The translations under genes and the position numbers were made by a program. From positions 13,398,121 to 13,462,120 of the forward strand of contig NC_084817.1 in NCBI RefSeq assembly GCF_963583255.1: a DNA stretch of 64,000 nucleotides, in the 5' to 3' direction. Below, piece after piece: positions 3,598 to 64,000 of the stretch (position 1 is its first letter; each line of letters begins with the position of its first letter). The notes under the pieces were generated by a model. The model was not told where the DNA came from. It saw only the letters and a program-made list of their open reading frames with translations, and did no database searches. This DNA is from Pyrus communis. Lineage: Eukaryota > Streptophyta > Magnoliopsida > Rosales > Rosaceae.

Positions 3598-3602
3598 GCT
3601 AA

Positions 3603-3620: not shown

Positions 3621-3626
3621 AAAATT

Positions 3627-26583: not shown

Positions 26584-26623
26584 AACTCCCCCACACTTAT
26601 CTTTTGCTAGTCCTCTAGCAAAA
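26584..26623 (-). other. Polypurine tract and stem-loop of B
   Basis: On minus: TTTTGCT...AGCAAAA stem (26602-26623) with GAGGAC in the loop, then AAGTGTGGGGGAGTT directly before the 3' LTR. Equivalent modules stand at 45069-45108 (F) and 55387-55426 (E). Confidence 0.85.
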
Positions 26624-27366: not shown

Positions 27367-27398
<32 letters not shown>

Positions 27399-28278: not shown

Positions 28279-28316
28279 CCCCCCCACACTTAAATCAAAC
28301 ATTGTCCTCAATGTTT
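28279..28316 (-). other. Upstream stem-loop plus polypurine tract, distal copy (PPT2a) of B
   Basis: AAACATTG/CAATGTTT stem with AGGA loop (28297-28316) followed on minus by the purine run (28279-28291). A second, less perfect copy lies on the other side of the accessory gene at 30683-30721. Confidence 0.7.
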
Positions 28317-28329
28317 TAAGCATAGATTC

Positions 28330-30357: not shown

Positions 30358-30390
30358 AGCACCATCTTTCTTTGTTTAGCAGTGCCTATC

Positions 30391-30396
30391 AATAAA
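30391..30396 (+). terminator. Polyadenylation signal of the antisense gene, B
   Basis: AATAAA 34 bases after the stop codon; conserved at 48896-48901 (F) and 59210-59215 (E). A poly-T run of about 32 bases (30509-30541) lies further downstream. Confidence 0.55.
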
Positions 30397-30504
30397 TCAA
30401 ACATTTTCTCAATGTTACAATCATAGACTCACACAATTAATAAACAAACAAACAATAACAACTAAACAACCTAACAAGGCAGAAACGAAATAGCAACAAA
30501 GAGA

Positions 30505-30543
<39 letters not shown>

Positions 30544-30682
30544 GAATCTGGATTTGGAGTTTTATACCAAGACACTATAAAACACACTAAAACACTCTAA
30601 AAACGCTTAAAACAGCAAGAAACAACATTCTAAGTGATAGGTGAATAAATCCCACGAACTTCATGCAAATATAAATTGTTTA

Positions 30683-30721
30683 CCCCCCCCACACTTAAAT
30701 CAAACTTTGTCCTCAATGTTT
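30683..30721 (-). other. Proximal copy of the stem-loop/PPT module (PPT2b) of B
   Basis: Same layout as 28279-28316 but with a one-base mismatch in the stem (CTTTG/CAATG). With its flanking 100-150 bp (AAACAACATTCTAAGTGATAGG...) it is a direct repeat of the sequence beside PPT2a, so the accessory gene is bracketed by a duplication in B and E. F lacks this proximal copy. Confidence 0.6.
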
Positions 30722-30914
30722 TAAGCAGAAAGTCACAACAGAGCAAGCAAATAAACAAATACGAGAAAGAAAGCAAAGTAAAGGCAGTAAAGAAAAAGAA
30801 AGGAATAAAAATAAGTCTCTTAAAGGGGTTTCCAAGTTCTTCTCTATTCGGATGCATGGGTTGCCTCCCACGAAGCGCTTTCTTTTACGTCTTGCAGCCG
30901 GACGGTACCTCCGT

Positions 30915-33610: not shown

Positions 33611-35587
33611 TGATAGGAGCATATTCATGCGACTTAAATGGCTTGTTCTCGTACATTTACGTTATGTTTCTTTAGTTAGTTTAGTCCTTTATGCTTCTTT
33701 TGTGTGTTTTCAGGATAATAAGACGTGTTTGACGAAAGGATGCATTGTGGAGTGTTTTGGAGCACTATTGGGCTAAGGATGGATAGCTTATGCTTGGAGC
33801 CCAAGTGTTGGATGAAATTGAAGGCCTTGTAAGCACTTGAGGACATAAAACAATGGCCCTAACCCAATTACATTCACCTTGCCTTGGGCTTAACACAAAC
33901 ACCATTCCTTGCCATGCAAGGGGGAGCAATTTGGGTCCATTTCATGTACTTAAACCCTAGCCCAATCCACAAACACTTCAAAGCCATGCAAAACCTTTCA
34001 ACACCCTTTAATCATTCCCCTTTAAGTTATGATTTTATTTCCTAACCCTACATGCATTATTTATTAGCATCTTCACATGCATTCACACCTCTTTAATCCA
34101 CATGCATTCATCATCATTCACTCTAGTTTTAATTCACATGCATTCCATCCTTTAATTCACCCACATGCCCCTTTAAATCATTCAATCACACCATCACACA
34201 TTCATCCTCCAACATTGCACATGCACTTTGCCTTTCATCATTGCACAACAATCATAAGAGCCACATGCACTCTTAAACAATCAACAACATATTCTCCCAT
34301 TCCCCCTATAAAAACCCATGCATTCATTGAGAAATTCATTCACTCCCCATTCCATCTCTCCATTTCTCACACCACAACTAACACAAACACTTCCCCTTAG
34401 AATCCAAAACCGTGAGTTCCATTTCCACCACTCCTCATCCATTTCATAATCCCCCAAACCTCACCTTAGACCTTGTGCTACAACAACGAGGAAGATAAGA
34501 GGGCCTAAACGTTCATACAATTCAAGTGTGAGTTGTTGGAATGTTTAGGTGTTTCTTTGATTTCAAAGTTTAAATTCAATTCTCTTTGTTTTGTACGTAT
34601 GAGGAATGGAAGAGAAGAGTGCCTAAACGTTCATACAATTTAAGTTTGAGTTGTTGGAATGTTTAGGTGTTTCTTTGATTTCAACTTAATGAGGAACTAA
34701 AACCCCCTTTAGCTAGGGGGTGATTCGAAATAAATGTTTATGCTTGCATTTTGATTTGATTACTTCTAATTGCGTTTCATAAGTTGTGAATTCAATTTGT
34801 TTAACCGTTTGATTGATAACTTATTTATGTATGTTATTGAGAATGCGCGCTTAATTTTCATGCATGAATATGACGCTAGAATATAAGTGAGTTTCACCTA
34901 ATCGTTATGAACTTATATTCACAAGTAGTGGAGGTTGCTTATAAACAATCGCGTTAAATGAATTCTTGGCACGAGTTTCATGCTCATCATAGTAACGAAT
35001 GCCTCGTCAACACTTATAGTTTTCATAATACTTAATGATCTTTGATTGTATCTTTATTGTGCTGTTCACGTAAAGGACTTTTGGAGAATGTAGTGAATTG
35101 CGTTGCGCTAACCCATCCAATTCATTAACTTAAGGAAAACTTGACGGTTAATTTAAGCGGACCTAATTGACCCGGGGTGATGAGTTTCATAATTTATTAA
35201 AATGCAATTGGAAATCTTTTTATTATGCAAGTGTATCATGTATGGAGATGAACCCCTTAGCTATTCTATCATCCATTCATTCCATTTCATCAATTCCATA
35301 TTTACATTCTGTTTTAATTTGTTCATTTAATTTAATCTCGTCCAAACACAATCCCCCCTTTACTTTATTGTTCAATTTAATTAGAAATCAATTTAGTTTA
35401 TGTTTTAAAGTATTTTTGAATTCTTTGAGTCTAGTTTAGTGTTTTATATTGTTTTTACATTTTTAAGTCAGTTTCCAAGAGATTAACAATCCCTCATAAT
35501 CCCCGGTCCAGAACGATCCCTACTTATACATATACTACAACTTGACGAAAAGAGGGTTTAATTTGTGCGCGTATAAATCTCGCATCA
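33611..35587 (+). repeat. Solo LTR inserted in pol of B (1977 bp)
   Basis: Plus-strand LTR with TGATAGGAGC and CGCATCA ends, flanked by the exact 5-bp duplication AGCCC (33606-33610 and 35588-35592). The uninterrupted sequence is seen in element E near 62560. TATA box 34307-34314; hairpins 34504-34549 and 34622-34667. Orientation is opposite to B. The LTR terminus supplies the TGA that ends the upstream gag-pol frame. Confidence 0.95.
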
Positions 35588-38386
35588 AGCCCCCTCCTCA
35601 AGAAGTATACGGTGCATGCATGTGGTAGGGCTTATTCCTTTAATGTCGGCCAAAGTCCACCCTATGGCCGTTTTGTGCTCTCGCAGCACCCTCACAAGCT
35701 TCTCCTCCTCCATTGCCGTGAGACTTGATGAAATGATGACGGGCAATGTTTCGCCTTCTCCCAAAAACACATACTTCAAATGGTCCGGCAACGGCTTAAG
35801 TTCAAGCGATGGTGCCTGAACAACAGAAGGTAGCATCTTAGTGGAAACTGAATTTGAAAGTGAGAGTGGAACCTTACCATATTGTTGTGGCAATGACTCA
35901 AGGGCTGCCACAACCTCAATTATTTCTTCACTAGAACCCATTGCAAAGAATTCCTCCTCATTGCCATGGCCTTGCATTGGCCCAAATCCTTCATTTTTGC
36001 GCTCTATGGCCTTAGTGATGGTTGTTTCCAGGGCGTCCTTGTTCAATTCTTCAAGGTATACCTGCGCCAAAGAATCGATAACATCAATGGAAAAACAAGA
36101 ATGGTCATCAACGGGATATCTCATAGTTTCAGAAATATTAAAATCAATCACTTCCCCATCGAATTCCATTGTCAAGGTGCCTTTGTATACATCAATCTTC
36201 GTTCGGGCCGTCTTCATGAATGGCCTACCAAGGAGAATCGGCAAAGATGTAGAATGGGCTGAATCCTCCATGTCTAGGACGTAGAAATCAGCCGGAAAAA
36301 TTAAATGGTTCACCTGCACAAGCACATCTTCCAAAACTCCTTTTGGATACGCGTTAGAACGATCGGCCAATTGTATAATTACACCATCTTGTTTTAATTC
36401 ACCCAAATTCATAGATGCATAAATAGAATAAGGCATGACATTTATGGATGCACCTAAATCAAGCATGGCATGTTCAAAATGATTATGTCCAATCACACAA
36501 GGAATCGTGAAACTACCGGGGTCTTTGCACTTGGTAGGCAGTTTACGTTGCAAAGCAGCGGACACATTCTCGCTTACCTTCACTACCTCTTTGTTTGCCC
36601 TTCTTCTCTTTGTATTGCATAGGTCCTTGAGGAATTTAGCATACTTTGGAACCTGTTTGATTGCATCGAGAAGCGGTATGTTCACTTGCACCTTCCGGAA
36701 CGTTTCAAGAATGTCCTTCTCGCTTTCTTCCTTTTTTTCTTGCATGAACCTGCGAGGAAAAGGTACATTGGGCAGATTAGGACGTGAAGTACATGAATTT
36801 GAACTTAAATTACCTGATTTGGCCGAGTTAGGGTGATCTGCCTCAGGTTGTGTTGTCTCTTCATCTACTTTCTGGGCAGATTTGGGATTGTTTGGCTCGG
36901 TCCCAACTTCTTTTCCACCCCTTAGGGTGATGGCCTTGGCGGATTCGAATCCTCCCTTTGGATTGACTGTGGTTGAGCTAGGAAGCTTTCCTTGCTCTCT
37001 AATCTGTCCAAGGAACTCAGAAATCTGCCCTATTTGTTTCTTCATATCCATCATCTCCTTCTCGTTATTTTCTATCCGGTTGTTTTGATTTTGCAACCCC
37101 TGCGAAATAGAGGTTAGTAATTGCATAGCTTGATTACTTTCCAAAGACGTACCTGAATGAGATGATGCCGAAGGTTGTTGGGATTGTTGGGGTGCATACG
37201 GCTTGGAATAAAAACCAGGGGGGTTTGGCCTAAATCCTCCTTGTTGGGCAGCTTGTTGTGGCTCCCTCCATCCGGCATTGTAAGTGTTCGAGTATGGGTT
37301 GTTTTGATTTTGTCCTTGGAAACCAATTGCATTGGCAGATTCCCACCCACCATTCTCGATTAGTTGAGGGCACTTGTCGGATGGATGCCCTTGAATTGAG
37401 CACACGCCACAAACTTGGTGTTCTTGCGCTTTTGGACCAATCACAACCTGAGAAACAAGAGAAGTAAGATTAGCAAGTTGTGATTGAATTTCAGAAATAG
37501 CACTCACCTCATTTACACTTTGTTGCCGTGGGGCTTCCCTTTGGCCCACTCCTTCATATTGTTGAGCGTTGAGCGCTCGGTTGGCTATGAGAATCTTGGC
37601 ATCCCTTGGTGTTTTGTCCACCAATGCTCCTCCCGCTGACGCATCAACCATTTGACGTTCGATAGGAAGGAGGCCCTCATAGAAATATTGAAGGAGAAGT
37701 TCCTCCTTCATTTGATGTTGAGGACATGAAGCTACAAGGCCCTTGAAACGCTCATAATAAGCCGGGAATGTCTCGCCATGATTCTGTTGAATACCACTGA
37801 TTTTCTTCCGTAGGAGAATCACTCTCGAAGTAGGGAAGAATTTCTCCAAGAAAGCACGCTTCATACTCTCCCACGAAGTCACAGTTCCCGGGGCTAGTTC
37901 GTAGAGCCAATCTTTGGCCTTGTCCATAAGTGAAAATGGAAAGGCCTTCATCTTCAATATACTCCCATCCACATTGACGGGGGTCATGCTCGAACAAACC
38001 ACCTCGAACTCCTTCAAGTGTTTGTTGGGGTCTTCCATAGACAAGCCATGGAACTTCGGAATATGGTGTAACAAACTGGATTTGAGTTCAAATTCCTCAG
38101 TCTTCCCCTCTGCAGCCGTGGGGTATTGGATACAAAGAGGCAATGCATTATCCAAACCCGAGGCCGAAAGCTCCTTGATGGTTCTATTATCTGCTGCCAT
38201 GGCTTGTTCTTCTTCAAAAATCTGATCCGTGGGCTTTTCTTCTACACCTACTTCGTCTTCTTCAAGCCCAGGTTGTGGTGGGGGTTGTGGTGGCTCTTGT
38301 TGACTCCTCGTTCTCCTCAAAGTGCGTTCAAAATCACCGTCAAAGTCGGAGATGTTCTCTATAATAGGCCGAGAGCGACGAGTCAT
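35585..38386 (-). CDS. Gag-protease and start of RT of B (N-terminal piece of a split polyprotein)
   Basis: 933 codons from MTRRSRPIIENISDFDG, the family's usual gag start, to the TGA made by the solo LTR end. Residues about 100-280 are the retrotransposon gag (capsid) domain (FHGLSMEDPNKHLKEF, WESMKRAFLEKFFP). The zinc knuckle C-x2-C-x4-H-x4-C is at 326-339. A Q/P-rich linker and coiled region follow (425-465). The aspartic protease has DLGAS at 643-647 and ILLGRPFM downstream. The last 50 residues are the lead-in to RT ([13 protein letters not shown]). Gag and pol share one frame with no stop in between, as is usual for many Athila copies. No internal stop or frameshift seen, consistent with a recent insertion. 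Confidence 0.93.
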   Translation of the reverse strand: MTRRSRPIIENISDFDGDFERTLRRTRSQQEPPQPPPQPGLEEDEVGVEEKPTDQIFEEEQAMAADNRTIKELSASGLDNALPLCIQYPTAAEGKTEEFELKSSLLHHIPKFHGLSMEDPNKHLKEFEVVCSSMTPVNVDGSILKMKAFPFSLMDKAKDWLYELAPGTVTSWESMKRAFLEKFFPTSRVILLRKKISGIQQNHGETFPAYYERFKGLVASCPQHQMKEELLLQYFYEGLLPIERQMVDASAGGALVDKTPRDAKILIANRALNAQQYEGVGQREAPRQQSVNEVSAISEIQSQLANLTSLVSQVVIGPKAQEHQVCGVCSIQGHPSDKCPQLIENGGWESANAIGFQGQNQNNPYSNTYNAGWREPQQAAQQGGFRPNPPGFYSKPYAPQQSQQPSASSHSGTSLESNQAMQLLTSISQGLQNQNNRIENNEKEMMDMKKQIGQISEFLGQIREQGKLPSSTTVNPKGGFESAKAITLRGGKEVGTEPNNPKSAQKVDEETTQPEADHPNSAKSGNLSSNSCTSRPNLPNVPFPRRFMQEKKEESEKDILETFRKVQVNIPLLDAIKQVPKYAKFLKDLCNTKRRRANKEVVKVSENVSAALQRKLPTKCKDPGSFTIPCVIGHNHFEHAMLDLGASINVMPYSIYASMNLGELKQDGVIIQLADRSNAYPKGVLEDVLVQVNHLIFPADFYVLDMEDSAHSTSLPILLGRPFMKTARTKIDVYKGTLTMEFDGEVIDFNISETMRYPVDDHSCFSIDVIDSLAQVYLEELNKDALETTITKAIERKNEGFGPMQGHGNEEEFFAMGSSEEIIEVVAALESLPQQYGKVPLSLSNSVSTKMLPSVVQAPSLELKPLPDHLKYVFLGEGETLPVIISSSLTAMEEEKLVRVLREHKTAIGWTLADIKGISPTTCMHRILLEEGA

Positions 38387-38505
38387 ACACAGTACCTAAA
38401 AAACAAACAAGGAAACAAACAAACTAAGAATCTAAAATAAGAATGCACGAAAAACAAACAAAAAAAAATATAAAAATAAAGACAAAGGATTAGCAAAGTT
38501 GCTAA

Positions 38506-38523
38506 TCCCCGGCAACGGCGCCA
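38506..38523 (-). other. Primer-binding site (tRNA-Asp) of B
   Basis: Perfect 18-base complement of the tRNA-Asp 3' end on minus, five bases inside the 5' LTR. Confidence 0.95.
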
Positions 38524-38528
38524 AAATT

Positions 38529-40929
38529 TGATGCGAGATTTACTTGACACTCAAATTAAACCCTCGTTTGACAATTGTAGTAGAATGGATAAGTGAGGGA
38601 TCGTTCTAGATCGGGGATTAGGAGGGCTTGCTAAAACCTTCTAAATTGACTTAAAAACATAAAAACTAAATTAAAATACTCTTAACAAGACTACTATGAC
38701 TCAGAATGGCTTTGAAAAACTCAAATTGTCTAAAACAATCAAATTGACTCAAATAGAAGCTAGAACTTGATTTAAACGAATTTGCAATTGTTTATGACTC
38801 CAAAAGCTTAAAGATACAAAAATAAAACAAATACGAATGATTAAGACTTAACAAAATAGGGGGGGGGGAATTGTGGTTGGACGATATTAAATTAAAAAGA
38901 CAGAATATAATTAAAGGCAAAATGTAAATATGAATGTGATAAAAATATGGATGATGGAATAGCCAAGGGGTTCTTCTCCACACATGTTACACTTGCAAAC
39001 AAAATTGATTCTCAGTTGGTCTTTCGATAAGTTGTGAAACTCAATGCTCCAAGTTAATTAGATCCGCTTAGATTAACTTTCAGATTTCCCTAAATTCGTT
39101 GGATTGAATGGAATACGCATTACAACCAAATTATTCTTAATCAAAGTCCCTAACTATGGAATACGCATGATAGAGACATTCAACAAAGATCATTAAGTTC
39201 AACGGAAATCATAAACATCGACGAGGCATTCGTTACTATGGAATACGCATGAAACTTATGCCAAGAATTCGTTTAACGCACTTATATTCTAGCGTCATAT
39301 TTATGCATGAAAATTAAGCTTGCAATCTCAATGAACATACATAAATAAGTTATCAATCAAACAGTTAAACGAATTGAATCCACAACTTATGAAATTCCAA
39401 CCAAACGTAATCAATTCAAAATGCAAATATAAACATAGTTTCGAATCACCCCCTAGCTAAAGGGGGGTTTAGTTCCTCATAACTTTGAAATCAAAGAAAC
39501 ACCTAAACATTCCAACAACTCAAACGTGAATTGTATGAACGTTTAGGCACTCTTCTCTTCCCTTCTCATACGTACAAAACAAAGGGAATTAAATTTAAAC
39601 TTTGAAATCAAAGAAACACCTAAACATTCCAACAACTCAAACTTGAATTGTATGAACGTTTAAGCACTCTTTTCTTCCTCGTTGTTGTAGCACAAGGTCT
39701 AAGGTGAGCTTAAGGGCTTTAGGTGTATGTGGAATGGAGTAGGGAGTGGTTGGAGATGGAAGAATGAAGAGAAAATATGCAGAAAATGAAGTGGGACTCA
39801 CGGCAATGGAATGGTATTTGTGTTGTGTGAAGTGTTGTGAATGGAAATATGAGATATGAATTGAATGGGGAGTGAATGAATGAATGCTAGGGTATTTATA
39901 GGGGTAGTGGAGGGAACATATGGCTGTTTGTTTAAGCATTTGTGTGGAGGAATGATGGAAAAACAGCTAGGACACATGTGAAAAATGGAATTGCACAAGG
40001 GGAGCAAAGGGAACCCACGGCATTGAGTGTTTGTTTGATGATGATGCATGTGATGGTGGGAACAAAGGGGGAAACATGGCACAAGGGGGTTTGAATGAAT
40101 GATTGAATGTGCATGTGGATTTTTAAAGAATGAGTGGTGGTGTAATGATGAAGTGAATGCATGTGAAAATTAGCTAGGAAAAGTTGTGGAAAGGCAAGGG
40201 AATACACGGCATTGAGATGTTGTTAGTGTGTGAATGCATGTGAATTAAAGCTAGGGTGAATGATTATGTGTTTGTGAATTATGCAAGATTGTATGGATGA
40301 ATGATTAGGGTCTTGTAAGGGTGGGAATGCATGTGTTGTGCATGGTTGTGAAGCTGGAATTAAGGGGGAAAGCCACGGCAATGAAGATGGGTGCATGTGT
40401 TGGATGATTTGTTTGTTGGTTAAAGCTTGTGAGTGAATGATTAAAAATGCATATGGATGAATTATACAATGGAAAAGTATGGAAGTGACACTAGGTTGAA
40501 TGATGATGAGTGCATGTGAGTTGAAATGCATGTGGAATGAAGATGGAGAAGGTGGTGTAATGATGCATGGTTGTAGTTTAGGGTGTTGAATATGGATTTG
40601 CATGGCTTTTGAAGTGATTGTGGGTTTTGGAATTGGAAGGAAATGCATGGCCTTGGGGTTGGTTTAAGAGAGAATGGGCTAGGCCCTTTGTTTTATGTCC
40701 AAAGTGAATACAAGGTCTTCAAATTCGTCCAACACTTTGGCTCCAATCATATGCTATCCAATCCAAGCCCAATTTTGCTCCAAAATGCTCCAAAATGCAT
40801 CTTTTTGCTCCCTTAGCCATATGAACCTAAAAACACACGAAAATGGCTTAATCTACTAAAACAACCATGAATTAACAACAAAGATGCACGAAAACAAGCT
40901 AAGTAAGTCGCCTAAATATGCTCCTATCA
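38529..40929 (-). repeat. 5' LTR of element B (2401 bp)
   Basis: Partner of 24183-26583 (constant offset 14346). TATA box 39893-39900; hairpins 39502-39547 and 39619-39664. Followed by the target duplication GTGCT at 40930-40934, after which D's LTR resumes. Confidence 0.96.
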
Positions 40930-49125: not shown

Positions 49126-50893
49126 TTAAGCTTGACTAGGTTCCACGGCATGGAGGGGTACCTGCTCCACGACATGCTCCTCAAACATCTCGTAATAGGG
49201 CTTCAATCAATGCCCATTCACTTTGAATTCTTGCTGCGTCCTTGAACTTTTGATTTGCACTGCACCATGAGGGAAAACATTAGTAACAACAAACGGGCCA
49301 ATCCATTTAGAACACAACTTACCAGGAAACAAACGTAGGCGAGAGTTGAAAAGTAACACTTTCTGCCCAACTGTGAAGGTCTTGGTTCGAATCATTTTAT
49401 CATGGAATGCTTTGGTCTTGGCTTTGTACATCCGGGCATTCTCATAGGCTTCATTCCGAATCTCCTCAAGTTCATTCAATTGGAGCTTCCTATGAACTCC
49501 CACTGCATCTATGTCCATGTTGAAAGTCTTCACGGCCCAATGTGCCTTGTGCTCTAAATCTACGGGCAAATGACATGGCTTACCATAGACGAGCCGAAAA
49601 GGTGACATCCCAATGGGTGTTTTGTATGCCGTACGATATGCCCACAGTGCATCATCTAAACGTAAGCTCCAATCCCTCCTTGTTGGTCCAACGGTCTTCT
49701 CCAAAATTTGTTTGATTTCTCGGTTAGACACCTCGGCTTGGCCATTTGTTTGAGGATGATAAGGTGTGGAGACCTTATGGTTGACATGGTACTTTCTTAG
49801 CAACACCTCAATGGTCCGATTGCAAAAGTGAGACCCTCCATCACTTATGATTACTCTCGGCATTCCAAACCTAGCAAAAATGTTAGTTTTCACGAAATCT
49901 GCAACCACCTTAGAATCATTAGTACGGGTGGCTTTTGCTTCCACCCATTTAGAAACATAATCAACGGCTAGCAATATATAAGTGAAACCATAAGATGGAG
50001 GGAAAAGGCCCATGAAATCAATGCCCCAAACATCAAAAATTTCAACATTAAAGACAGGGGTTTGCGGCATTTGGTCCTTGGTACCTATGTTACCCATTCG
50101 TTGGCAACGATCACAAGACATACAAAAGGTTCTAGCATCCATAAATATAGTCGGCCAATAAAAACCACACTCTAGAACCTTGAGGGCAGTGCGTTGTGTG
50201 CCAAAATGACCACCACATGCATATGTGTGACAAAAGCTTAGAATTGAGTGAAATTCAGAATCATGCACACATCTACGTACAATTTGATCTGAGCAATACT
50301 TCCACAAATAAGGGTCATCCCAAACATAGAAACGTGCATCATTTTTAAGCTTATCACGTTGGTGCTTGTTTAGTTCATTTGGAATTTGTTTAGCCACCAA
50401 GTAATTCACTAAATCTGCATACCATGGTTCACTTACCTCAATGGATAGCAGCTGCTCATCGGGAAAAGTTTCAGGGATAGGTACGGCATGTTCATGCTCC
50501 TCGTGGATCATTCGGCTTAAATGGTCAGCCACTACATTCTCGCTTCCTTTCTTATCCCGGATTTCAATATCAAATTCCTGAAGAAGAAGAATCCAACGGA
50601 TAAGCCTCGGCTTTGCTTCCTTTTTCGTGATCAAGTACCTCAAAGCTGCATGATCAGAATAAACGATTACCTTAGTACCAATTAAATATGAACGGAATTT
50701 ATCTAAAGCAAAAACCACAGCTAGAAGTTCTTTTTCCGTCGTGGAGTAGTTCAATTGGGCATCATTGAGAGTCCGAGAGGCATAGTATATGACATGCGGC
50801 CGCTTGTCTCTTCTTTGTCCTAGAACAGCTCCTAATGCATAGTCGGATGCATCGCACATGAGCTCGAACGGAAGGCTCCAATCTGGAGGTACA
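49126..50893 (-). pseudogene. RNase H-integrase part of F pol, with stop, truncated by E
   Basis: Open from the E insertion (50893, at the [10 protein letters not shown] segment before RNase H) through RNase H and the whole integrase. At 49205-49207 a CGA (Arg in B) has become TGA, cutting the last 27 residues ([11 protein letters not shown]...). The natural stop would be at 49126. The catalytic integrase residues and HHCC module are intact. RT and everything upstream are separated by E. Confidence 0.9.
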
Positions 50894-53800
50894 TGATGCG
50901 AGTTTTATACGCGCACAAATTAAACCCTCTTTTTGTCAAATTGTAGTATAGGTGCAAGTAGGGATCGTTCTGGACCGGGGATTAGGAGGGATTGTTAATC
51001 TCTTGGAAACTGACTTAAAAACGTAAAAACAATATAAAACACTAAACTAGACTCAAAGAATTCAAAAATACTTTAAAACATAAACTAAACAGATTCTAAC
51101 AAGTTCAAAAGACTCAAAACTCTTAAAAACACAAACTAAATTGATTTCTAACTAATTTGACATTAAAGTAAAGGGGGATTTAGGTTTTGACAAAATTAAA
51201 CTAAATGAACAAATTGCAATTAAAACAGAATGTAAATATGAATGTGAATAAAATATGGATGATGGAATAGCCAAGGGGTTCTTCTCCACACATGTTACAC
51301 TTGCATACAAGATTGATTCTCAGTTGGTCTTTCGATAAATTATGAAACTCAATGCTCCAAGTTAATTAGGTCCGCTTAAATTAACTTTCAGATTTCCCTA
51401 GATTCGTTGGATTGAATGGAATACGCATTACAACCAAATTATTCTTAATCAAAGTCCCTAACTATGGAATACGCATGATAGAGACATTCAACAAAGATCA
51501 TTAAGTTCAACGGAAATCATAAACATCGACGAGGCATTCGTTACTATGGAATACGCATGAAACTTATGCCAAGAATTCGTTTAACGCGATTGTTTATAAG
51601 CAACCTCCACTACTTGTGAATATAAGTTCATTACGATTAGGTGAAATTCACTTATATTCTAGCGTCATATTTATGCATGAAAATTAAGCGCGCATTCTTA
51701 ATAAACATTCATAAATAAGTTATCAATCAAACGGTTAAACAAATTGAATCCACAACTTATTAAATTCCAACCAAAAGTAATCAATTCATAATGCAAGCAT
51801 AAACATGTATTTTGAATCACCCCCTAGCTAAAGGGGGTTTAGTTCCTCATAACTTTGAAATCAAAGAAACACCTAAACATTCCAACAACTCAAACTTGAA
51901 TTGTATGAACGTTTAGGCACTCTTCTCTTCCATTCCTCATACGTACAAAACAAAGAGAATTAAATTTAAACTTTGAAATCAAAGAAACACCTAAACATTC
52001 CAACAACTCACACTTGAATTGTATGAACGTTTAGGCCCTCTTATCTTCCTCGTTGTTGTAGCACAAGGTCTAAGGTGAGGTTTGGGGGATTATGGAAATG
52101 GATGAGGAGTGGTGTTTGGATTATAAGGGAATGGATGGGAAGCTCACGGCTAGGGAAGGGAGAATGTGTTTGTAATGTGTTGTGTATGAAATGAGATGTC
52201 CTTGAATGAATGAATGCAAGGGTATTTATAGGAGTAATGGAGGGAACATGACAGCTAGGAGGTGGGTGGAAATGTGGCTGCAAGTTTGGTGAATGATTAT
52301 GAGTGAATGCATGTGAATGTGGCTAGGTTGGAAAGCTGGAAATCTGAAAATGCAAATGGGAATGCTGAAATGCAAAGGTGGCCACGGTTTTGAGTGTGTT
52401 TTGTGTTGGAAATGCATGTGAATGCATGTGAATGTTGTTTGTGTGAAGTGTGTGTGGGTTAAAGAGTGAATGGTGGTGTAATGATGAAGTGTGATGGCTG
52501 AAAATGTCAAGGGAAATGCATGTGATTGCACGGCAAAGAATTTCAGGATGCATGTGTGTTGGTGTGTTGTGTGATTTGTTTTGTGGTTGATGGGAATGTG
52601 GTTGAATGATTAAATGGACATGTGGGGTGTAATTGAAAAGGGAATGCAAAGTGAACGAATAATGAATGCATGTGCACTGTTTTTGGGAGAAAGGTGGCTG
52701 AATGTGCATGTGAATTAGGTTGTGAAAACATGTGGAATGTGGCTGGAATTGATGAGTAATGCACGGTTTTGTTGTTGGTTCTTTGGTGATGAATGCAATG
52801 ATGAAATGGATGGGAGTGCATGTGGATTAGGTGGTGTAATGATGAAGTGGGAAGTGGAAGAATGTGGTTGGAAATGGCTAAGGGGATGCACGGCTAGGAA
52901 GAAGAATGAATGATGTGCATGTGTGTATGCATGTGAAGATGCTAATAAATAATGCATGTAGGGTTAGGAAATAAAATCATAACTTAAAGGGGAATGATTA
53001 AAGGGTTTTGAAAGGTTTTGCATGGCTTTGAAGTGAATGTGGATTGGGCTAGAGTTTAAGTACATGAATGATGCGTGATTTATGCGCACACAAATTAAAC
53101 CCTCTTTTTGACGATTTGTAGTATAAGTGCAAGTAGGGATCGTTCTAGACCGGGGATTAGGAGGGCTTGCTAAAACCTTCTAAATTGACTTAAAAACATA
53201 AAAACACAATATAAAACACTATTTAATGCTTGAAGAAAGCAAAACTAAAAATAAGAAAGATTAAGACTAAGACTTCAACGAAATAGGGGGGAATTGGATT
53301 TGGACGAATTTAAACTAAAATGAATACTTGGAAACAAAACAAATTGTAAAAATGGATTTGACGGAAATGAATGGATGGTATGGCTAGCTAAGGGGTTCAT
53401 CTCCATACATGTTACACTTGCATAATAAAATGATTTCCAATTGCATTTCAATAAACCATTAATTCTCAACACCCCGGGTTAATTAGGTCCGCTTAAATTA
53501 ACCGTCAAGTTTTCCTTAAGTTAATGAATTGGATGATTGCATACGACAACCCAAAGCATTCCTCACAAGTTCCCTACATGAATTGCATAATAGAGATACA
53601 AGCAAGAATCATTAAGCATCATGAAAACTATAAGTGTTGACGAGGCATTCGTTACTATGATTGCATGAAACTTATGCCAAGAATTTGTTTAACGCGATTG
53701 TTTATAAGCAACCTCCACTACTTGTGAATATAAGTTCATAACTATTACGTGAAACTCACTTATATTCTAGCGTCAAATTCATGCATGAAAATTAAGCGTT

Positions 53801-55386
53801 CATTCTTAATAAACATACATAAATAGGTTATCAATCAAACAGTTAAACAAATTGAATTCACAATTTATGAAACGTAATTAAAAGTAATCAAATCATATTA
53901 CAAACATAAACATAATTTCGAATCACCCCCTAGCTAAAGGGGGTTTTAGTTCCTCATTACGTGAAATCAAAGAAACACCTAAACATTCCAACAACTCAAA
54001 CTTGAATTGTATGAACGTTTAGGCACTCTTCTCTTCCATTCCTCATACGTACAAAACAAAGAGAATTAAATTTAAACTTTGAAATCAAAGAAACACCTAA
54101 ACATTCCAACAACTCAAACTTGAATTGTATGAACGTTTAGGCACTCTTTTCTTCCTCGTTGTTGTAGCACAAGGTCTAAGGTGAGGTTTGGGGGATTATG
54201 GAAATGGATGAGGAGTGGTGTTTGGATTCTAAGGGAGAGATGACTCACGGCTAAGGAAAGAATGGAAGTGTTTGAGGGGTGTTGTGTTGTGAATGAGATG
54301 GAGAGATGGAGTGGGGAGTGAATGAATTTCTCAATGAATGCATGGGTTTTTATAGGGGGAATGGGAGAATATGTTGTTGATTGTTTAAGAGTGCATGTGG
54401 CTCTTATGATTGTTGTGCAATGATGAAAGGCAAAGTGCATGTGCAATGTTGGAGGATGAATGTGTGATGGTGTGATTGAATGATTTAAAGGGGCATGTGG
54501 GTGAATTAAAGGATGGAATGCATGTGAATTAAAACTAGAGTGAATGATGATGAATGCATGTGGATTAAAGAGGTGTGAATGCATGTGAAGATGCTAATAA
54601 ATAATGCATGTAGGGTTAGGAAATAAAATCATAACTTAAAGGGGAATGATTAAAGGATGTTGAAAGGTTTTGCATGGCTTTGAAGTGATTGTGGATTGGG
54701 CTAGGGTTTAAGTACATGAAATGGACCCAAATTGCTCCCCCTTGCATGGCAAGGAATGGTGTTTGTGTTAAGCCCAAGGCAAGGTGAATGTAATTGGGTT
54801 AGGGCCATTGTTTTGTGTCCTCAAGTGCATACAAGGCCTTCAATTTCATCCAACACTTGGGCTCCAAGCATAAGCTATCCATCCTTAGCCCAATTAGTGC
54901 TCCAAAACACTCCACAATGCATCCTTTCGTCAAACACGTCTTATTATCCTGAAAACACACAAAAGAAGCATAAAGGACTAAACTAACTAAAGAAACATAA
55001 CATAAATGTACGAGAACAAGCCATTTAAGTCGCATAAATATGCTCCTATCAATGAAATGGATCCAAATTGCTCCCCCTTGCATGGCAAGGAATGGTGTTT
55101 GTGTTAAGCCCAAGGCAAGGTGAATGTGATTGGGTTAGGGCCATTGTTTTGTGTCTTCAAGTGCATACAAGGCCTTCAAATTCGTCCATCCTCTTGGCTT
55201 CATGGATAAGCTATCCAATCCATGCCCAAAAATGCTCCAAATGGCCTCAAAATGCACTTTCTTGCTCCCTAGGCCCTTAGAACCTGAAAACACACAAAAG
55301 AAGCATAAAGGACTAAAATAACGAGAGAAACATAACGTAAATGCACGAGAACGAGCCATTTAAGTCGCATGAATATGCTCCTATCA
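50894..55386 (-). repeat. 3' LTR of element E, split by a solo LTR
   Basis: Family ends at 50894 (TGATGCGAGT) and 55386 (CCTATCA), about 2505 bp without the insertion at 53069-55051. TATA box 52223-52230; hairpins 51872-51917 and 51990-52035. PPT follows at 55387. Confidence 0.92.
53069..55051 (-). repeat. Solo LTR inside E's 3' LTR (1983 bp)
   Basis: Family ends on minus, flanked by the exact 5-bp duplication ATGAA (53064-53068 and 55052-55056). TATA-type box 54347-54354; hairpins 53978-54023 and 54096-54141. Similar in length and body to the solo LTR in B pol (33611-35587). Confidence 0.93.
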
Positions 55387-55426
55387 AATACCCCCACACT
55401 TAGCTTTTGCTAGTCCTCGAGCAAAA
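55387..55426 (-). other. Polypurine tract and stem-loop of E
   Basis: Purine run next to the LTR and TTTTGCT/AGCAAAA stem (55405-55426) with GAGGAC loop. Confidence 0.85.
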
Positions 55427-57063
55427 CAGAATAAAAACAAATAAACAAAACGACACTAAACACGTAAAACACAACCTAAACCTTCCAACAACCGTCTTAG
55501 GGATTTCCAATGCACATGACATGTTAAAAATCATCATTCTCACAGATTTTAGTCATCTTCACACTTAAGTACATTCTTAATCATAGTCACCATATACTAG
55601 TTCACAATTAAGCATTTAAAACCATGTTTTGAATGTAGTAACATGCCTTAGAGAATTTGCTCAATTCCTTACAAGATATGCACTCGATTTTCACTCAGAA
55701 TTTCTAACTACACACCCTAATCTAGTCATATGTGAGAAGATTGATGTAACATGAAAACGAACACTCACATATAAGTATCACAAAGAACGCAATTTCTGGA
55801 GTTAATAAGCATGTTTAGATATGATCTCATGAATGGAATGCTACTACTTAGACGCGAGAACCAGTGACACCATAAGCTCATACCAAGTTCAAACTCCACA
55901 AATTGAAATACACAACACTCAAGATAGAAGTCAAGGGTTGTAACGGGGCTTGGGGTATGTGGATAACAAAGAAGGGATATGGAAAACAAAGGTTCTTAAA
56001 AAAAAAAAAATAGTGAGCAAAGCATTTGAATCAACTTAGAATTCACTTTTGAATGAAAACTCAACTTTTGAACAAAAAGGGAGAATTTAGACAATTTACG
56101 CCCAGAATTGGTGTTTTGGAACCTTTCTTCAATCACTTATTCTTTTCTCTCTTTTTTTTTTTTTTTTTTTTTTTTTTTCTTTTCTTTTGAATCTCAAAAC
56201 ATAAACACTTAAACATTCTCTCCCCCACACTTATTTTCTTTCATAATGTAACTCAAAAGGAATTCAATTAAGTCATGCTCACTATCTTTTAAGAACAAGG
56301 GTGGGGATTGTCCTAAACTAGGCTAGGTGAGGAAAAAGTGGGTTAACAAAGAACATGGGCTAACACGGCTCAACGGGGGTACAACTTACAACATATACGA
56401 AATATGGGAAGTGAGGCTATTTGGCTATGGTGGCAACTACACAACTTCATCTTGAATATGTGTTATGCAAATCAATAACATGCTTTGAATGAAATGGGCA
56501 TGAGTTCTAGCATTTGGAACTATATGATGAAACGCCTTCTAAGTAGTAACCAAGCAAAGAATAATGAGATCATGCAACGACTTTAGAAAACAAGAAATCA
56601 CAGATTATACTCTCCAAAGAACGTTATAGGCTCAAGTCTCTCAGGGTTGTAGCGTTTGTTTGAGTTCCTTCCTTCAAGCATGTTACAAAAACGAATTTTT
56701 TTTATTTTTTTATGATTGCATGTGAAGTCATACATTATAACCATAACCAAGCATATACCAAGAGTAAATCAAACTTTTCTCTATGTTTATAACTCTTTCT
56801 AACCGTCATGCAATTATAAACCAAATCCTTATCATTGTGTTGGAAGGTACCCTAAGACACAAACTCACAAAAAAAACGACTCAAAACACTCTTTTTAGGC
56901 TTTTCAAAACAATTTTTCAAATTTTTATGTGCTTTTCGGAGTTATAAAACAAAACACGCTAAAACAGTTTAAAAACACCTTAAAAACATTTAAAACAGCA
57001 AGGAACAACACTTGAAGTTATGGGTGATAAAATTCAACGAATTTGCATCAACATACTTAGTTA
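55427..57063 (-). mobile_element. 3' non-coding region of E
   Basis: Homologous to 26624-28278. Contains poly-A (55999-56010) and poly-T (56153-56180) runs; no supported gene. Confidence 0.75.
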
Positions 57064-57102
57064 CCCCCCCCACACTTAAATCAAACATTGTCCTCAATGT
57101 TT
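57064..57102 (-). other. Upstream stem-loop plus polypurine tract, distal copy (PPT2a) of E
   Basis: Perfect AAACATTG/CAATGTTT stem (57083-57102) and purine run. A proximal copy with a mismatched stem is at 59653-59690. Confidence 0.68.
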
Positions 57103-57109
57103 TAAGCAT

Positions 57110-58513
57110 AGATTCACACAAAGCATAAGTAAATACACAAAAAGCACTTAAACATACTAAACATGGCATAATGTAATTAACAAAGAGAAGAGTTTAGAGA
57201 CGCAAATCTGGTTATAGAGTGTAAATTCCATCTTCTCCTTGGTAATTGCATTGAGGCTTTTGATCTTTGTGATTCCACAGGCTTACTCTTGAACTGGTTT
57301 CTGCCCATCGTTGATTTTCCTTTGTGCTACTTCTTGAACTGGGCAGCAGGATGGTTCTTTTGGTCTCCCCCGAAGGTCTGAGCCTATCCCTTTTATTTGT
57401 TTCTTTGTTCAATCTTTCCAATTCGTATTGAAAAGGGTTGGAGGATAACTCAGCCTATGTTTGTCTCCACATGCTTCAATGTATCATTTTCACTTGCCTT
57501 ACTCGCTCCCCTTTGCAGAAGTGGTCTCTTCTCCGGAAGTGTATCAACCGTTGAAGATGACTACTCGAGAGCAACGCTAGGTAAGCAATCAGGAATAGAT
57601 TCCAGGCAGTTGGCTCCAGAACGGAAGACTGACTCCAAGTGCCGGCTGATTGCTTCTTTTACTTTGCCATGCGAGTAAGAACAAGGACAAAGAAAAAGAC
57701 AGGGAAAGAGCATGATATGAGATACTTTTGCTTTTGACCTTGATGATATGAGATACCTTTGCTTTTGAAGAAGCGGTGAATGAATCAGCACATGTATTTG
57801 TTGTGCTGTTTCCTCCTGGGTCATATGTACTCCAGGCATCTGGTATCATCTTTGGGGAAGAAGAAAGAATTGAGTATTTCGAAAGGCTTTGCTGGGAGTG
57901 CACCCTCAGAGGTGAGGGAGAGTTGGGCATTTTTTTCAGGTTTGCCCTGCCATAAAAGACGAAGGTCGACATATATAGAGATAATATCAAGTGGTGGTAC
58001 TTTTTACCTTTGTCGACAAACGTTTTGATCCCGCAAATCCGGCTTTTTGAAATAATGGCGCCTCTTCGATCTCTGAACACGCCTCTTCGATTTCTGAGCA
58101 GGCGCCCCTTCGATTTCTGAACGACGCCCCTTCGCTTTCTGAACGACACGTGGTAGTGCAGATGCGGCTCCTTTTGACAAAGCTGCACGCGTCTTCTGAA
58201 AAGCTGAGAAAGCGTCGCCGAACTTTGCGCTTGTCGGCTAAAGATGTGTAGTTGTGATGATGGCCTCCACGTGTTGTCAGAAAAGAAGAAATCTTTTGAC
58301 AAAGTTGAACGCGCCTTCTGAAAAGCCGAGAAAGCGTCGCCTAAATTACGCCGGAAATTCCGGCTTTTTGAATTGGTGGACGCGTCGCCTTGGCTTTTTT
58401 ATTGAGCTATCGATCACCACAACAAACACACTCTGAAGATTTCCCATTCTTGAAAATCGACTCCGGCCCTTTGAAATTTAACTCCATCCCTTCTCTTTGA
58501 ACACTTTTGAAAA
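57110..58513. promoter_or_regulatory. Accessory spacer and divergent promoter-like region of E
   Basis: TATATA box on minus at 57972-57977 facing the spacer 57110-57960. G-boxes at about 58147 and 58268-58273, TTTTGACAAAG repeats (about 58171 and 58292), CTTCGATTTCTGA minisatellite (58061-58147), then a pyrimidine-rich leader to the ATG at 58514. A 237-codon minus frame (57589-58302) runs through this region but is not convincing as a protein. Confidence 0.45.
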
Positions 58514-59176
58514 ATGGCAAACTCATCGAACCTTAGCTTGGAATTGAGCCTTAGCAGTGATACGGGCGCGCCGCGTCAAGGTAACGTATGGCGCCCTTCT
58601 TTCTTTTCTTCTAACGGTCCTCTCACAGGTGAAGACTCCGTGATGCAGGACGCCACAACAGCTACAATAGTAGCTAGGAACCTCCTCACTCCGAAAGATA
58701 GTAGGCTGCTGTCAGGACGGTCCGATGAGCTGGCCGTTCAAGAGTCCCTCGCACTTAGTGTTCAGTGTGCGAGTTCTGTGTCCAACATGGGCCAACGCCT
58801 GCTTGCCCGCTCCCGTCAGGTGGAATCATTGATGGCAGAGGTGGAAAGTCTCAAGCAGGAGATCCAGCAGCTGAAGTATGAGAATAGAAGTTTGCACGTG
58901 CTTGCAAACAACTATTCGACGGGCATGAAGAGGAAGCTTGATGAGCTGCAAGAGTCTGAAGGTCGGATTCACAGTGACCGTCAAAGGTTCTCGTCTTTCC
59001 TCCAGAGGCACCTTTTTCCTGGCTCATCCAGCGCTTGGCCAAGTATTGAGGCCTGGAATGCTCTATCTTCGATGCCTTCTGCTCCTACGCCTTCCGCTCC
59101 GATGCCTTCTGTTCCTACGCCTTCCGCTTCAAGAGTAAAGCCACGTAGTGGGGCCTCAAGCAAACACCCTTTGTGA
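58514..59176 (+). CDS. Antisense accessory coiled-coil protein of element E (220 aa)
   Basis: As in B and F: MANSSNLSLELSL start with the LxLxL motif, conserved core, coiled coil and basic tail (ending SSKHPL). Two fewer pentapeptide repeats than B and F account for the shorter length. AATAAA at 59210-59215. The C-terminal third is also present in inverted orientation at 63666-63854. Confidence 0.72.
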   Translation: MANSSNLSLELSLSSDTGAPRQGNVWRPSFFSSNGPLTGEDSVMQDATTATIVARNLLTPKDSRLLSGRSDELAVQESLALSVQCASSVSNMGQRLLARSRQVESLMAEVESLKQEIQQLKYENRSLHVLANNYSTGMKRKLDELQESEGRIHSDRQRFSSFLQRHLFPGSSSAWPSIEAWNALSSMPSAPTPSAPMPSVPTPSASRVKPRSGASSKHPL

Positions 59177-59908
59177 AGCACCATCTTTCTTTGTTTAGCA
59201 GTGCCTATCAATAAATCAAACATTTTCTCAATGTTACAATCATAGACTCACACAATTAATAAACAAACAAACAATAACAACTAAACAACCTAACAAGGCA
59301 GAAACGAAATAGCAACAAAGAGAAGAGTTTTTTTTTTTTTAGGAATCTGGATTTGGAGTGCTTTCTAAGTCTTCCTTTGTTGAATGCATGGGTTGCCTCC
59401 CAAGTAGCGCTAAGACACAAACAAACACCAAAATGACTCAAATGACTCTAAAAACACATATTTTTGGGTTTTTCAAAAGAATTTTTTTTTTTTTTTTTAT
59501 TTTTTTAAATTTTTATCAAATTTTCGGAGTTTTATACCAAGACACTATAAAACACACTAAAACACTCTAAAAACGCTTAAAACAGCAAGAAACAACATTC
59601 TAAGTGATAGGTGAATAAATCCCACGAAATTCATGCAAATACAAATTGTTTACCCCCCCACACTTAAATCAAACTTTGTCCTCAATGTTTTAAGCAGAAA
59701 GTCACAATAGAGCAAGCAAATAAACAAATACGAGAAAGAAAGCAAAGTAAAGGCAGTAAAGAAAAAGAAAGGAATAAAAATAAGTCTCTTAAAGGGGTTT
59801 CCAAGTTCTTCTCTATTCGGATGCATGGGTTGCCTCCCACCAAGCGCTTTCTTTTACGTCTTGCAGCCGGACGGTACCTCCGTTTAAGCTTGACTAGGTT
59901 CCACGGCA
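59003..59908. repeat. Left arm of E's large inverted repeat
   Basis: 906 bp from the C-terminal part of the antisense ORF to just inside the end of pol. The reverse complement recurs at 62934-63854 (921 bp) with very few differences: a 15-bp pentapeptide-repeat unit, homopolymer lengths and at least one substitution near 59815/63029. The arms are separated by 3,025 bp of pol. Confidence 0.93.
59653..59690 (-). other. Proximal copy of the stem-loop/PPT module (PPT2b) of E
   Basis: Lies between two direct copies of the ATGCATGGGTTGCCTCCCA motif (59384-59402 and 59820-59838). The module was therefore duplicated together with the post-pol motif. Confidence 0.6.
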
Positions 59909-62900
59909 TGGAGGGGTACCTCCTCCACGACATGCTCCTCAAACATCTCGTAATAGGGCTTCAATCGATGCCCATTCACTTTGAATTCTTGCCGCGTCCT
60001 TGAACTTTTGATTTGCACTGCACCATGAGGGAAAACATTAGTAACAACAAACGGGCCAATCCATTTAGAACGCAACTTACCAGGAAACAAACGTAGGCGA
60101 GAGTTAAAAAGTAACACTTTCTGCCCAACTGTGAAGGTCTTGGTTCGAATCATTTTATCATGGAATGCTTTGGTCTTGGCTTTGTACATCCGGGCATTCT
60201 CATAGGCTTCATTCCGAATCTCCTCAAGTTCATTCAATTGGAGCTTCCTATGAACTCCCGCTGCATCTATGTCCATGTTGAAAATCTTCACGGCCCAATG
60301 TGCCTTGTGCTCTAACTCTACGGGCAAATGACATGGCTTACCATAGACGAGCCGAAAAGGTGACATCCCAATGGGTGTTTTGTATGCCGTACGATATGCC
60401 CACAGTGCATCATCTAAACGTAAGCTCCAATCCCTCCTTGTTGGTCCAACGGTCTTCTCCAAAATTTGTTTGATTTCTCGGTTAGACACCTCGGCTTGGC
60501 CATAAGGTGTGGAGACCTTATGGTTGACATGGTACTTTCTTAGCAACGCCTCAATGGTCCGATTGCAAAAGTGAGACCCTTCGTCACTTATGATTACTCT
60601 CGGCATTCCAAACCTAGCAAAAATGTTAGTTTTCACGAAATCTGCAACCACCTTAGAATCGTTAGTATGGGTGGCTTTTGCTTCCACCCATTTAGAAACA
60701 TAATCAACGGCTAGCAAGATATAAGTGAAACCATAAGATGGAGGGAAAGGGCCCATGAAATCAATGCCCCAAACATCAAAAATTTCAATATTAAAGACAG
60801 GGGTTTGCGGCATTTGGTCCTTGGTACCTATGTTACCCATTCGTTGGCAACGATCACAAGACATACAAAAGGTTCTAGCATCCCTAAATATAGTCGGCCA
60901 ATAAAAACCACACTCTAGAACCTTGAGGGCAGTGCGTTGTGTGCCAAAATGACCACCACATGCATATGTGTGACAAAAGCTTAGAATTGAGTGAAATTCA
61001 GAATCATGCACACATCTACGTACAATTTGATCTGAGCAATACTTCCACAAATAAGGGTCATCCCAAACATAGAAACGTGCATCATTTTTAAGCTTATCAC
61101 GTTGGTGCTTGTTTAGTTCATTTGGAATTTGTTTAGCCACCAAGTAATTCACTAAATCTGCATACCATGGTTCACTTACCTCAATGGATAGCAGCTGCTC
61201 ATCGGGAAAAGTTTCAGGGATAGGTACGGCATGTTCATGCTCCTCATGGATCATTCGGCTTAAATGGTCAGCCACTACATTCTCGCTTCCTTTCTTATCC
61301 CGGATTTCAATATCAAATTCTTGAAGAAGAAGAATCCAACGGATAAGCCTCGGCTTTGCTTCCTTTTTCGTGAGCAAGTACCTCAAAGCTGCATGATCAG
61401 AATAAACGATTACTTTAGTACCAATTAAATATGAACGGAATTTATCTAAAGCAAAAACCACAGCTAGAAGTTCTTTTTCCGTCGTGGAGTAGTTCAATTG
61501 GGCATCATTGAGAGTCCGAGAGGCATAGTATATGACATGCGGCCGCTTGTCTCTTCTTTGTCCTAGAACAGCTCCTAATGCATAGTCGGATGCATCGCAC
61601 ATGAGCTCGAACGGAAGGCTCCAATCTGGAGGTACAATAATGGGGGCCGAGACTAGCTTCTCCTTGAGTTGGTTAAATGCCGAATTACACTCTTCATCAA
61701 ACTTGAATGGCACATCTTTTTGAAGCAATCGGCAAAGAGGGTTGGACATCTTGGAGAAGTCCTTGATAAAACGCCTATAGAACCCTGCATGGCCAAGAAA
61801 CGAACGTACCTCTCTAACCGAAGTAGGAGAGGGTAAGTGACGTACAAGGTCTATTTTCGATTTATCTACTGCAATTCCTTTTTCTGAAACAATATGTCCT
61901 AAAACTATACCTTGTTTCACCATAAAGTGACATTTCTCCCAATTCAAGACAAGGTTAGTTTCAACACATCGTTTCAAAATTAAGGTCAGATTATCCAAGC
62001 AATTATCAAATGAACTCCCAAATACACTGAAATCATCCATGAAAACCTCAATGATCTTTTCAACAAAATCGGAAAATATACTTACCATACACCTTTGGAA
62101 AGTGGCCGGTGCGTTGCATAAGCCAAATGGCATGCGACGATAAGCAAATGTTCCAAAGGGACATGTGAATGTGGTCTTCTCTTGATCATCCGGGGCTATC
62201 ACAATTTGGTTATATCCAGAGTATCCATCAAGAAAACAGTAAAAAGCATGACCGGCTAACCTTTCGAGCATCTGGTCGATGAATGGCAAAGGAAAGTGAT
62301 CTTTCCTAGTCATGGCATTTAGCTTCCGGTAATCGATACATAACCGCCATCCAGTCTGAATGCGTGTAGGCACGAGCTCATTCTCATCATTCTTGATAAC
62401 AGTTACTCCGGACTTCTTGGGAACGACTTGAATTGGAGAGACCCAACGGCTATCGGAGATAGGGTAGATCACTCCGCAATCCAAAAGCTTGATTATTTCC
62501 TTCTTCACCACTTCCATCATCGGAGGGTTGAGACGGCGTTGAGCCTCTCGAGTTGGTTTAGCCCCCTCCTCAAGAAGTATACGGTGCATGCATGTGGTAG
62601 GGCTTATTCCTTTAATGTCGGCCAAAGTCCACCCTATGGCCGTTTTGTGTTCTCGCAGCACCCTCACAAGCTTCTCTTCCTCCATTGCCGTGAGACTTGA
62701 TGAAATGATGACGGGCAATGTTTCGCCTTTTCCCAAAAACACATACTTCAAATGGTCTGGCAACGGCTTAAGTTCAAGCGATGGTGCCTGAACAACAGAA
62801 GGTAGCATTTTAGTGGAAACTGAATTTGAAAGTGAGAGTGGAACCTTACCATATTGTTGTGGCAATGACTCAAGGGCTGCCACAACCTCAATTATTTCTT

Positions 62901-63021
62901 CACTAGAACCCATTGCAAAGAATTCCTCCTCCTTGCCGTGGAACCTAGTCAAGCTTAAACGGAGGTACCGTCCGGCTGCAAGACGTAAAAGAAAGCGCTT
63001 GGTGGGAGGCAACCCATGCAT
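59884..63021 (-). CDS. Pol of E: RT, RNase H, integrase with a novel 29-residue start
   Basis: 1045 codons. Residues 1-29 are translated from the inverted arm (62934-63021), which by chance supplies an in-frame ATG. From [14 protein letters not shown] onward it matches the segment between protease and RT in B. RT FMDD is near 327-330, RNase H D476/E517/D542/D585, and integrase D754, D813, E844. Two departures affect integrase. A 15-bp deletion removes HPQTN just before the catalytic Glu (KVSTPY then GQAEV), and GG after the second Asp has become EG. Protease and gag are missing. Integrase is probably inactive, so E must have been mobilised by another copy, or lost function afterwards. The junction at residue 154 ([10 protein letters not shown]) shows the uninterrupted form of the site hit by the solo LTR in B. 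Confidence 0.9.
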
Positions 63022-63854
63022 CCGAATAAAGAAGAACTTGGAAACCCCTTTAAGAGACTTATTTTTATTCCTTTCTTTTTCTTTACTGCCTTTACTTTGC
63101 TTTCTTTCTCGTATTTGTTTATTTGCTTGCTCTGTTGTGACTTTCTGCTTAAAACATTGAGGACAAAGTTTGATTTAAGTGTGGGGGGGTAAACAATTTG
63201 TATTTGCATGAATTTCGTGGGATTTATTCACCTATCACTTAGAATGTTGTTTCTTGCTGTTTTAAGCGTTTTTAGAGTGTTTTAGTGTGTTTTATAGTGT
63301 CTTGGTATAAAACTCTGAAAATTTGATAAAAATTTAAAAATAAAAAAATAAAAAAAAAATTCTTTTGAAAAACCCAAAAATATGTGTTTTTAGAGTCATT
63401 TGAGTCATTTTGGTGTTTGTTTGTGTCTTAGCGCTACTTGGGAGGCAACCCATGCATTCAACAAAGGAAGACTTAGAAAGCACTCCAAATCCAGATTCCT
63501 AAAAAAAAAAAAAACTCTTCTCTTTGTTGCTATTTCGTTTCTGCCTTGTTAGGTTGTTTAGTTGTTATTGTTTGTTTGTTTATTAATTGTGTGAGTCTAT
63601 GATTGTAACATTGAGAAAATGTTTGATTTATTGATAGGCACTGCTAAACAAAGAAAGATGGTGCTTCACAAAGGGTGTTTGCTTGAGGCCCCACTACGTG
63701 GCTTTACTCTTGAAGCGGAAGGCGTAGGAACAGAAGGCGTAGGAACAGAAGGCATCGGAGCGGAAGGCGTAGGAGCAGAAGGCATCGAAGATAGAGCATT
63801 CCAGGCCTCAATACTTGGCCAAGCGCTGGATGAGCCAGGAAAAAGGTGCCTCTG
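62934..63854. repeat. Right arm of E's large inverted repeat
   Basis: Reverse complement of 59003-59908. The inner junction shares TGCC (62934-62937) between pol and the arm. At the outer junction CTCTG/AAGAAATT leads straight into the LTR at 63863. It includes an inverted PPT2b module (63151-63188) and inverted post-pol motifs (about 63003-63020 and 63438-63456). Confidence 0.93.
63666..63854 (-). pseudogene. Inverted C-terminal fragment of the accessory ORF
   Basis: Encodes LQRHLFPGSSSAWPSIEAW, five pentapeptide repeats and the basic tail, now in the same direction as E's own transcription. The frame stays open through the LTR boundary (to 63926), fusing 23 LTR-encoded residues to the fragment. 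No evidence of function. Confidence 0.8.
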
Positions 63855-63862
63855 AAGAAATT

Positions 63863-64000
63863 TGATGCGAGTTTTATACGCGCACAAATTAAACCCTCTT
63901 TTTGTCAAATTGTAGTATAGGTGCAAGTAGGGATCGTTCTGGACCGGGGATTAGGAGGGATTGTTAATCTCTTGGAAACTGACTTAAAAACGTAAAAACA
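63863..64000 (-). repeat. 5' LTR of element E (first 138 bp seen)
   Basis: TGATGCGAGTTTTATACGCG at 63863. All 138 bases are identical to 50894-51031 of the 3' LTR. The PBS that should lie just inside it is absent. Confidence 0.92.

Follow-up and report, generated by a model that had tools for sequence, protein, structure and literature searches.

The window, i.e. the whole 64-kb stretch of DNA analysed, is by self-BLAST a nest of related LTR retrotransposons, in which element C (24183-40929, minus strand; delimited by self-BLAST and by comparison of PBS, LTRs and TSD) serves as the reference copy. C shows TG..CA ends, a PBS, a PPT and a 5-bp TSD: its LTRs (24183-26583 and 38529-40929) differ at 6 of 2401 positions, its TSD is GTGCT and its PBS at 38506-38523 is a perfect match of 18 bases. 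A gag domain was found by Pfam in an ORF of C, and the domains RVT_1, RT_RNaseH, Integrase_H2C2 and rve follow each other in this order in both C and E, which is the Ty3/gypsy arrangement of gag plus pol with the order RT, RNase H, integrase, E itself being devoid of gag. The protease of C is presumed from its position and a known motif, and from the RT motifs and the PBS we take the family to be Athila-like. All of C, D and E have their pol region on the minus strand, and a solo LTR of a related element is nested in C (33611-35587, TSD AGCCC).

Element E is a defective Ty3/gypsy element on the minus strand lacking PBS and gag. It begins at 50894 inside the pol of element D, which matches the pol of E up to 50893 and then stops (self-BLAST), and the adjoining bases GTACA (50889-50893) are the expected TSD, the partner of which lies beyond the window. 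The 3' LTR of E (minus strand) is divided into a first part (50894-53068, end TGATGCG) and a remaining part (55052-55386) by a related solo LTR (53069-55051, minus strand); as the latter has its own 5-bp TSD ATGAA within the 3' LTR, the second copy being the first five bases of the remaining part, it was inserted after the arrival of E. The visible end of the 5' LTR spans 138 bp (63863-64000, minus strand), the rest being beyond the window. The initial annotation described the visible LTRs as identical, and they are so at 138 of 138 positions (63863-64000 against 50894-51031), a statement that extends to these 138 bp of a 3' LTR split by the later solo LTR. Since the right-hand TSD of E falls outside the window, as does almost the whole of its 5' LTR, a single normal insertion of E can only be presumed. 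A PPT-like sequence adjoins the 3' LTR at 55387-55404 (minus strand), where it would act as the PPT of the element. The pol of E is contained in an open frame of 1096 aa (59884-63174, minus strand; ORF list and Pfam) encoding RT, RNase H and integrase, the integrase having a 15-base in-frame deletion of a motif that is present in a database protein, P0124. As a separate observation, a PPT-like module is duplicated within E at 57060-57118 and 59648-59706, the latter on the minus strand, found by repeat search and called PPT2b in the initial annotation; the two copies are 90% identical, resemble the PPT beside the 3' LTR and are possible extra plus-strand priming sites.

Antisense to pol, E contains an accessory ORF of 221 aa (58511-59176, plus strand; ORF list), the last 177 bases of which lie in the left arm described below. 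It has 615 relatives in the database, and among the 120 matches listed the named ones come from Malus or Pyrus, which points to a host probably related to apple and pear. The pN/pS ratio is 0.22-0.28 in five of six pairs, the sixth, C-D, giving 1.57 from 6 differences, and the ORF probably encodes a real protein as judged from these sequence comparisons. Profile searches returned weak coiled-coil-type matches only, with NCBIfam matches far below the curated cut-offs. Assignment to the Retand lineage was considered and rejected: an antisense ORF is present but the expected TRP28 domain (PF04195) gave no match at an E-value of 0.01 in a Pfam search of three copies.

The central feature of E is a pair of long inverted arms. 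The left arm (59000-59908, plus strand; self-BLAST, repeat search and alignment) consists of the original post-pol region, the end of pol and the end of the antisense ORF, and the right arm (62934-63857, minus strand; self-BLAST and alignment with C and D) is an inverted copy of 59000-59908 replacing PBS, gag and protease, all of which are found in C at the matching place (~35970-38528, ~2.56 kb). In the self-BLAST, 58996-59914 aligns to the opposite strand of 63860-62928 at 97.3% over 936 columns, and the repeat search returns the same pair as four ungapped blocks (I1-I4) with 96-98% complementarity; the limits used here were set by alignment with C and D together with the junction sequences. 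The initial annotation, which regarded 62934-63854 as a near-perfect reverse complement of 59003-59908 standing in place of PBS, gag and protease, was thus accurate in substance, with limits right to within 3 bases. Neither arm contains LTR sequence. Listing inverted pairs from self-BLAST of the window (at least 150 bp, E-value 1e-20), we found three of at least 400 bp and at least 95% identity, and only that of E has both arms within one element.

Aligned over 917 columns, the arms show 8 mismatches and 17 gap columns. Two mismatches fall outside the arms, at 58999 in the LTR spacer and at 59909 in pol, two are in a poly-T tract (59492 and 59501), and the remaining four (59002, 59526, 59708 and 59813) are clear point differences, all of them C/T or G/A; one 15-base minisatellite unit makes up 15 of the gap columns. 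In seven alignment columns both arms share a variant against C and D, six of these being in the minisatellite and dependent on the alignment and one, at 59167, being independent of it. The shared variants indicate that the template of the inverted arm was E-like, i.e. E's own sequence or that of a sister copy.

Both ends of the right arm are informative. At the outer junction, compared with 38470-38560 of C, an intact 5-base LTR-PBS spacer (63858-63862, minus strand; AATTT in element sense) is joined directly to the arm; the LTR is whole, the PBS is gone, and the break coincides exactly with the spacer/PBS boundary. No PBS was found in E with up to 3 mismatches; five PBS copies are present elsewhere in the window, four with a 5-base spacer and the one at 3603 with a 6-base spacer. 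The spacer/PBS boundary is the point where tRNA-primed minus-strand DNA starts and hence the end of unprocessed cDNA. Homology at this junction is small, 6 of 16 bases matching in register with only TT in common, which, together with the C/T difference at 59002, points to a possible contribution of end-joining.

At the inner junction there is an inverted microhomology with a shared 4-mer core (62934-62937, minus strand), around which 11 of 14 bases agree between the pol of C and the antisense arm. A match of 11/14 or better occurred in 108 of 200,000 random registers and in 620 of 20,000 registers sharing a 4-mer (3.1%); given the shared 4-mer, the microhomology is only moderately unusual. The 1096-codon frame crosses this junction, starting in the right arm and running on into pol. 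Just past the junction, E and P0124 both have Lys where C has Asn, indicating that E follows a known pol variant here without a new mutation and that the apparent mismatch of E is probably a parental variant. P0124 is a full-length gag-pol protein from a 5805-nt database contig and is 100% identical to E over the aligned 47% of E-frame residues 20-130; its source may be a transcript, which would mean that the family is expressed. A protein-database search with these residues gave 15 matches covering at most 53% of the 111 residues, none shown to span the inner junction, a search of this kind being restricted to predicted proteins with words in common with the query.

These observations support a model in which E acquired its inverted arm at the cDNA stage, during its last reverse transcription, to which we assign a probability of about 0.7. 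The junction evidence and the proposed origin are new here, the structure having been described before without an origin. During reverse transcription of E, one end would have switched template at the short inverted microhomology between 5' pol and the post-pol region and copied in the wrong direction for about 0.9 kb, after which the copied end would have been joined to an LTR cDNA that had ended at the spacer, where the minus strand begins. This partner may have been plus-strand strong-stop DNA without the tRNA-copied PBS, or a linear cDNA whose end was ligated by host enzymes, and the resulting cDNA would have been inserted into element D. Lacking the PBS, E could not be primed normally again and would be a dead end. 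Of what a template-switch product should show, the inner junction has the microhomology and a reverse-transcription landmark is present; the outer junction has this landmark but little homology. Speaking against the cDNA origin, the coincidence with the PBS boundary is a single event noticed post hoc. One simpler variant, in which the internal PPT-like module primed the arm template, was rejected, the arm extending about 200 bases past the module on its 5' side (59706 to 59908).

Age and composition of the elements fit a recent accident of this kind. The arms differ at 4 clear points, the visible LTR of E at 0 of 138 positions and the LTR pair of C at 6 of 2401, suggesting that all three are recent. 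Pol identity is 99.1% for E-C and 98.8% for E-D; in the post-pol region C, D and E are 90.6-91.7% identical, with 200-bp windows near 56 kb falling to 75-76% (E 55387-62560 against C and D). C, D and E are mosaics, as recombination during reverse transcription would give, and frequent recombination at this step is described for Onsen (PMC5668417).

The inversion might instead have formed on the chromosome after the insertion of E, by microhomology-mediated break repair or break-induced replication. The inner microhomology would suit this as well, and foldback inversions via DNA hairpins are described in yeast in the available part of a report (PMC7467729), but chromosomal repair does not explain why the outer break should coincide exactly with the spacer/PBS boundary and spare the LTR, and we regard it as unlikely. 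That the arm is an assembly or foldback-read artefact, as a nest of similar elements might invite, is highly improbable, since the arms produced by a self-folded read would not differ, while those of E do so at 4 clear sites, a 15-base unit and the poly-T tract, and one arm end joins precisely to the LTR spacer while the other carries a pol variant found in an independent database protein. The position of the outer junction at the PBS boundary, the few differences between the arms and their shared variants together make an accident at the cDNA stage fit better than either chromosomal rearrangement or a foldback artefact.

The arm layout implies that both arms, separated by about 3 kb of pol, would be present in any transcript through E, as the initial annotation had proposed, and in the predicted minimum-energy fold of the 4858-nt stretch 905 of the 924 right-arm bases pair with the left arm. 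The predicted energy is -0.525 kcal/mol per nt for E, compared with -0.296 for C (4606 nt) and -0.288 for E without the arm (3934 nt), the longest helix in each of these controls being 17 bp. Provided that the 5' LTR of E is active, the RNA would form a stem of about 900 bp closed by a loop of 3 kb, on which a Dicer-like enzyme could plausibly act, making E RNA a possible hairpin source. Of the 886 24-mers of the left arm, 766 are found in the right arm, and of the 901 of the right arm, exact matches exist for 496 in C, 303 in D, 27 in 5000-13000 and 3 in 19600-22045, with 0/901 in both 1-5000 and 13000-19600. The earlier proposal that the double-stranded RNA would cover all related elements is therefore too wide, C and D being the only stretches, of those tested, that exact matches cover well.

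Could E be a working trans-silencer, i.e. a source of LTR-driven hairpin RNA cut to small RNAs that repress the family, like Mu killer (Muk) for MuDR? The long and near-perfect arms and the 24-mers shared with C and D would suit this. Precedents are found in the accessible portions of two reports, maize long hairpin loci yielding small RNAs at 28 hp-siRNA loci (PMC11390486) and Muk being an inverted duplication with hairpin RNA that silences its family (PMC2725412). Several observations count against it. Lacking LTR or promoter sequence, the arms would not be expected to direct promoter silencing directly. A related LTR element entered the 3' LTR of E after E itself (TSD ATGAA), and by raw counts the well-covered target C is of about the same age as E (6/2401 in the LTRs against 4 in ~905 arm columns), giving no sign that the family stopped. 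The antisense ORFs of the family could already give double-stranded RNA without E, and exact-match cover beyond C and D is poor among the stretches tested. We therefore consider such a role of E doubtful.

The arms of Muk include the terminal/promoter region of its target, whereas those of E are internal and without LTR or promoter; E is moreover an LTR retrotransposon, and its hairpin is known from sequence and predicted fold. E shares with Muk, which derives from maize MuDR, the inverted duplication of part of a transposon, both being rearranged derivatives that could make hairpin RNA according to the available text (PMC2725412, PMC11624286). Near-perfect long genomic hairpins cut to small RNAs, among them the Tpd1 hairpin, are described for maize in the part of the report at hand (PMC11390486); that of E is likewise long and near-perfect but has a 3-kb pol loop and LTRs and is known from its predicted fold. 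Nested antisense EVD insertions in Arabidopsis are a further case in which retrotransposons are proposed to supply hairpin RNA or dsRNA for silencing (PMC11624286), but there two insertions of opposite orientation form LTR hairpins, whereas in E the arm is internal to a single element and the hairpin is free of LTR sequence. Regarding origin, the complex LTR insertions of Triticeae (Sabot and Schulman 2007; 2 complexes against 400 LTR retrotransposon insertions) resemble E in that, by the available text, aberrant template switching in reverse transcription built an odd element that was then inserted, but they are fusions of two elements (PMC1950507), whereas in E an inverted duplicate of internal sequence stands in for PBS and gag. 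The stem 'invert' is absent from the main text of that report as far as it is accessible, and the titles, abstract openings and passages surveyed in the open-licence literature showed no LTR element in which such a duplication takes the place of PBS and gag.

The antisense ORFs differ from those of Grande, RIRE2 and Retand in having no TRP28 match at an E-value of 0.01 and in accompanying a pol that we take to look Athila-like. They are alike in lying between pol and the 3' LTR on the strand opposite to pol, and for elements with such ORFs the formation of dsRNA with the genomic RNA is suggested in the accessible parts of the reports (PMC7264820, PMC11963269).

Hairpin-forming copies are one proposed trigger for a plant's first recognition of a new transposon family, and E offers a concrete route by which such a copy may be born inside an LTR family. 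E is a real, recent and defective copy with a well-supported origin, and a possible hairpin source. That one retrotransposition accident, a mis-transfer at the PBS boundary producing an LTR-driven, self-complementary and non-mobile copy, makes a family-specific silencer seems unlikely to us; if true, the plant would gain a dead-end 'killer' copy for free, and if hairpins at the PBS edge recur, errors of reverse transcription would regularly supply young LTR families with new silencing loci. The junction provides a signature searchable in genomes, i.e. LTR and spacer running straight into inverted internal sequence without a PBS, making the frequency of the accident measurable even if E is silent.

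In further scans of the window, Rfam gave 0 matches at the gathering threshold and a tRNA scan 0, and a viral-contig scan with a piece of the C pol matched 4 stretches with 0 relatives, being uninformative for a plant element. Apart from the elements described, the window contains a tandem array at 17894-18873 with 15 copies of a 65-bp repeat (~95% matches).
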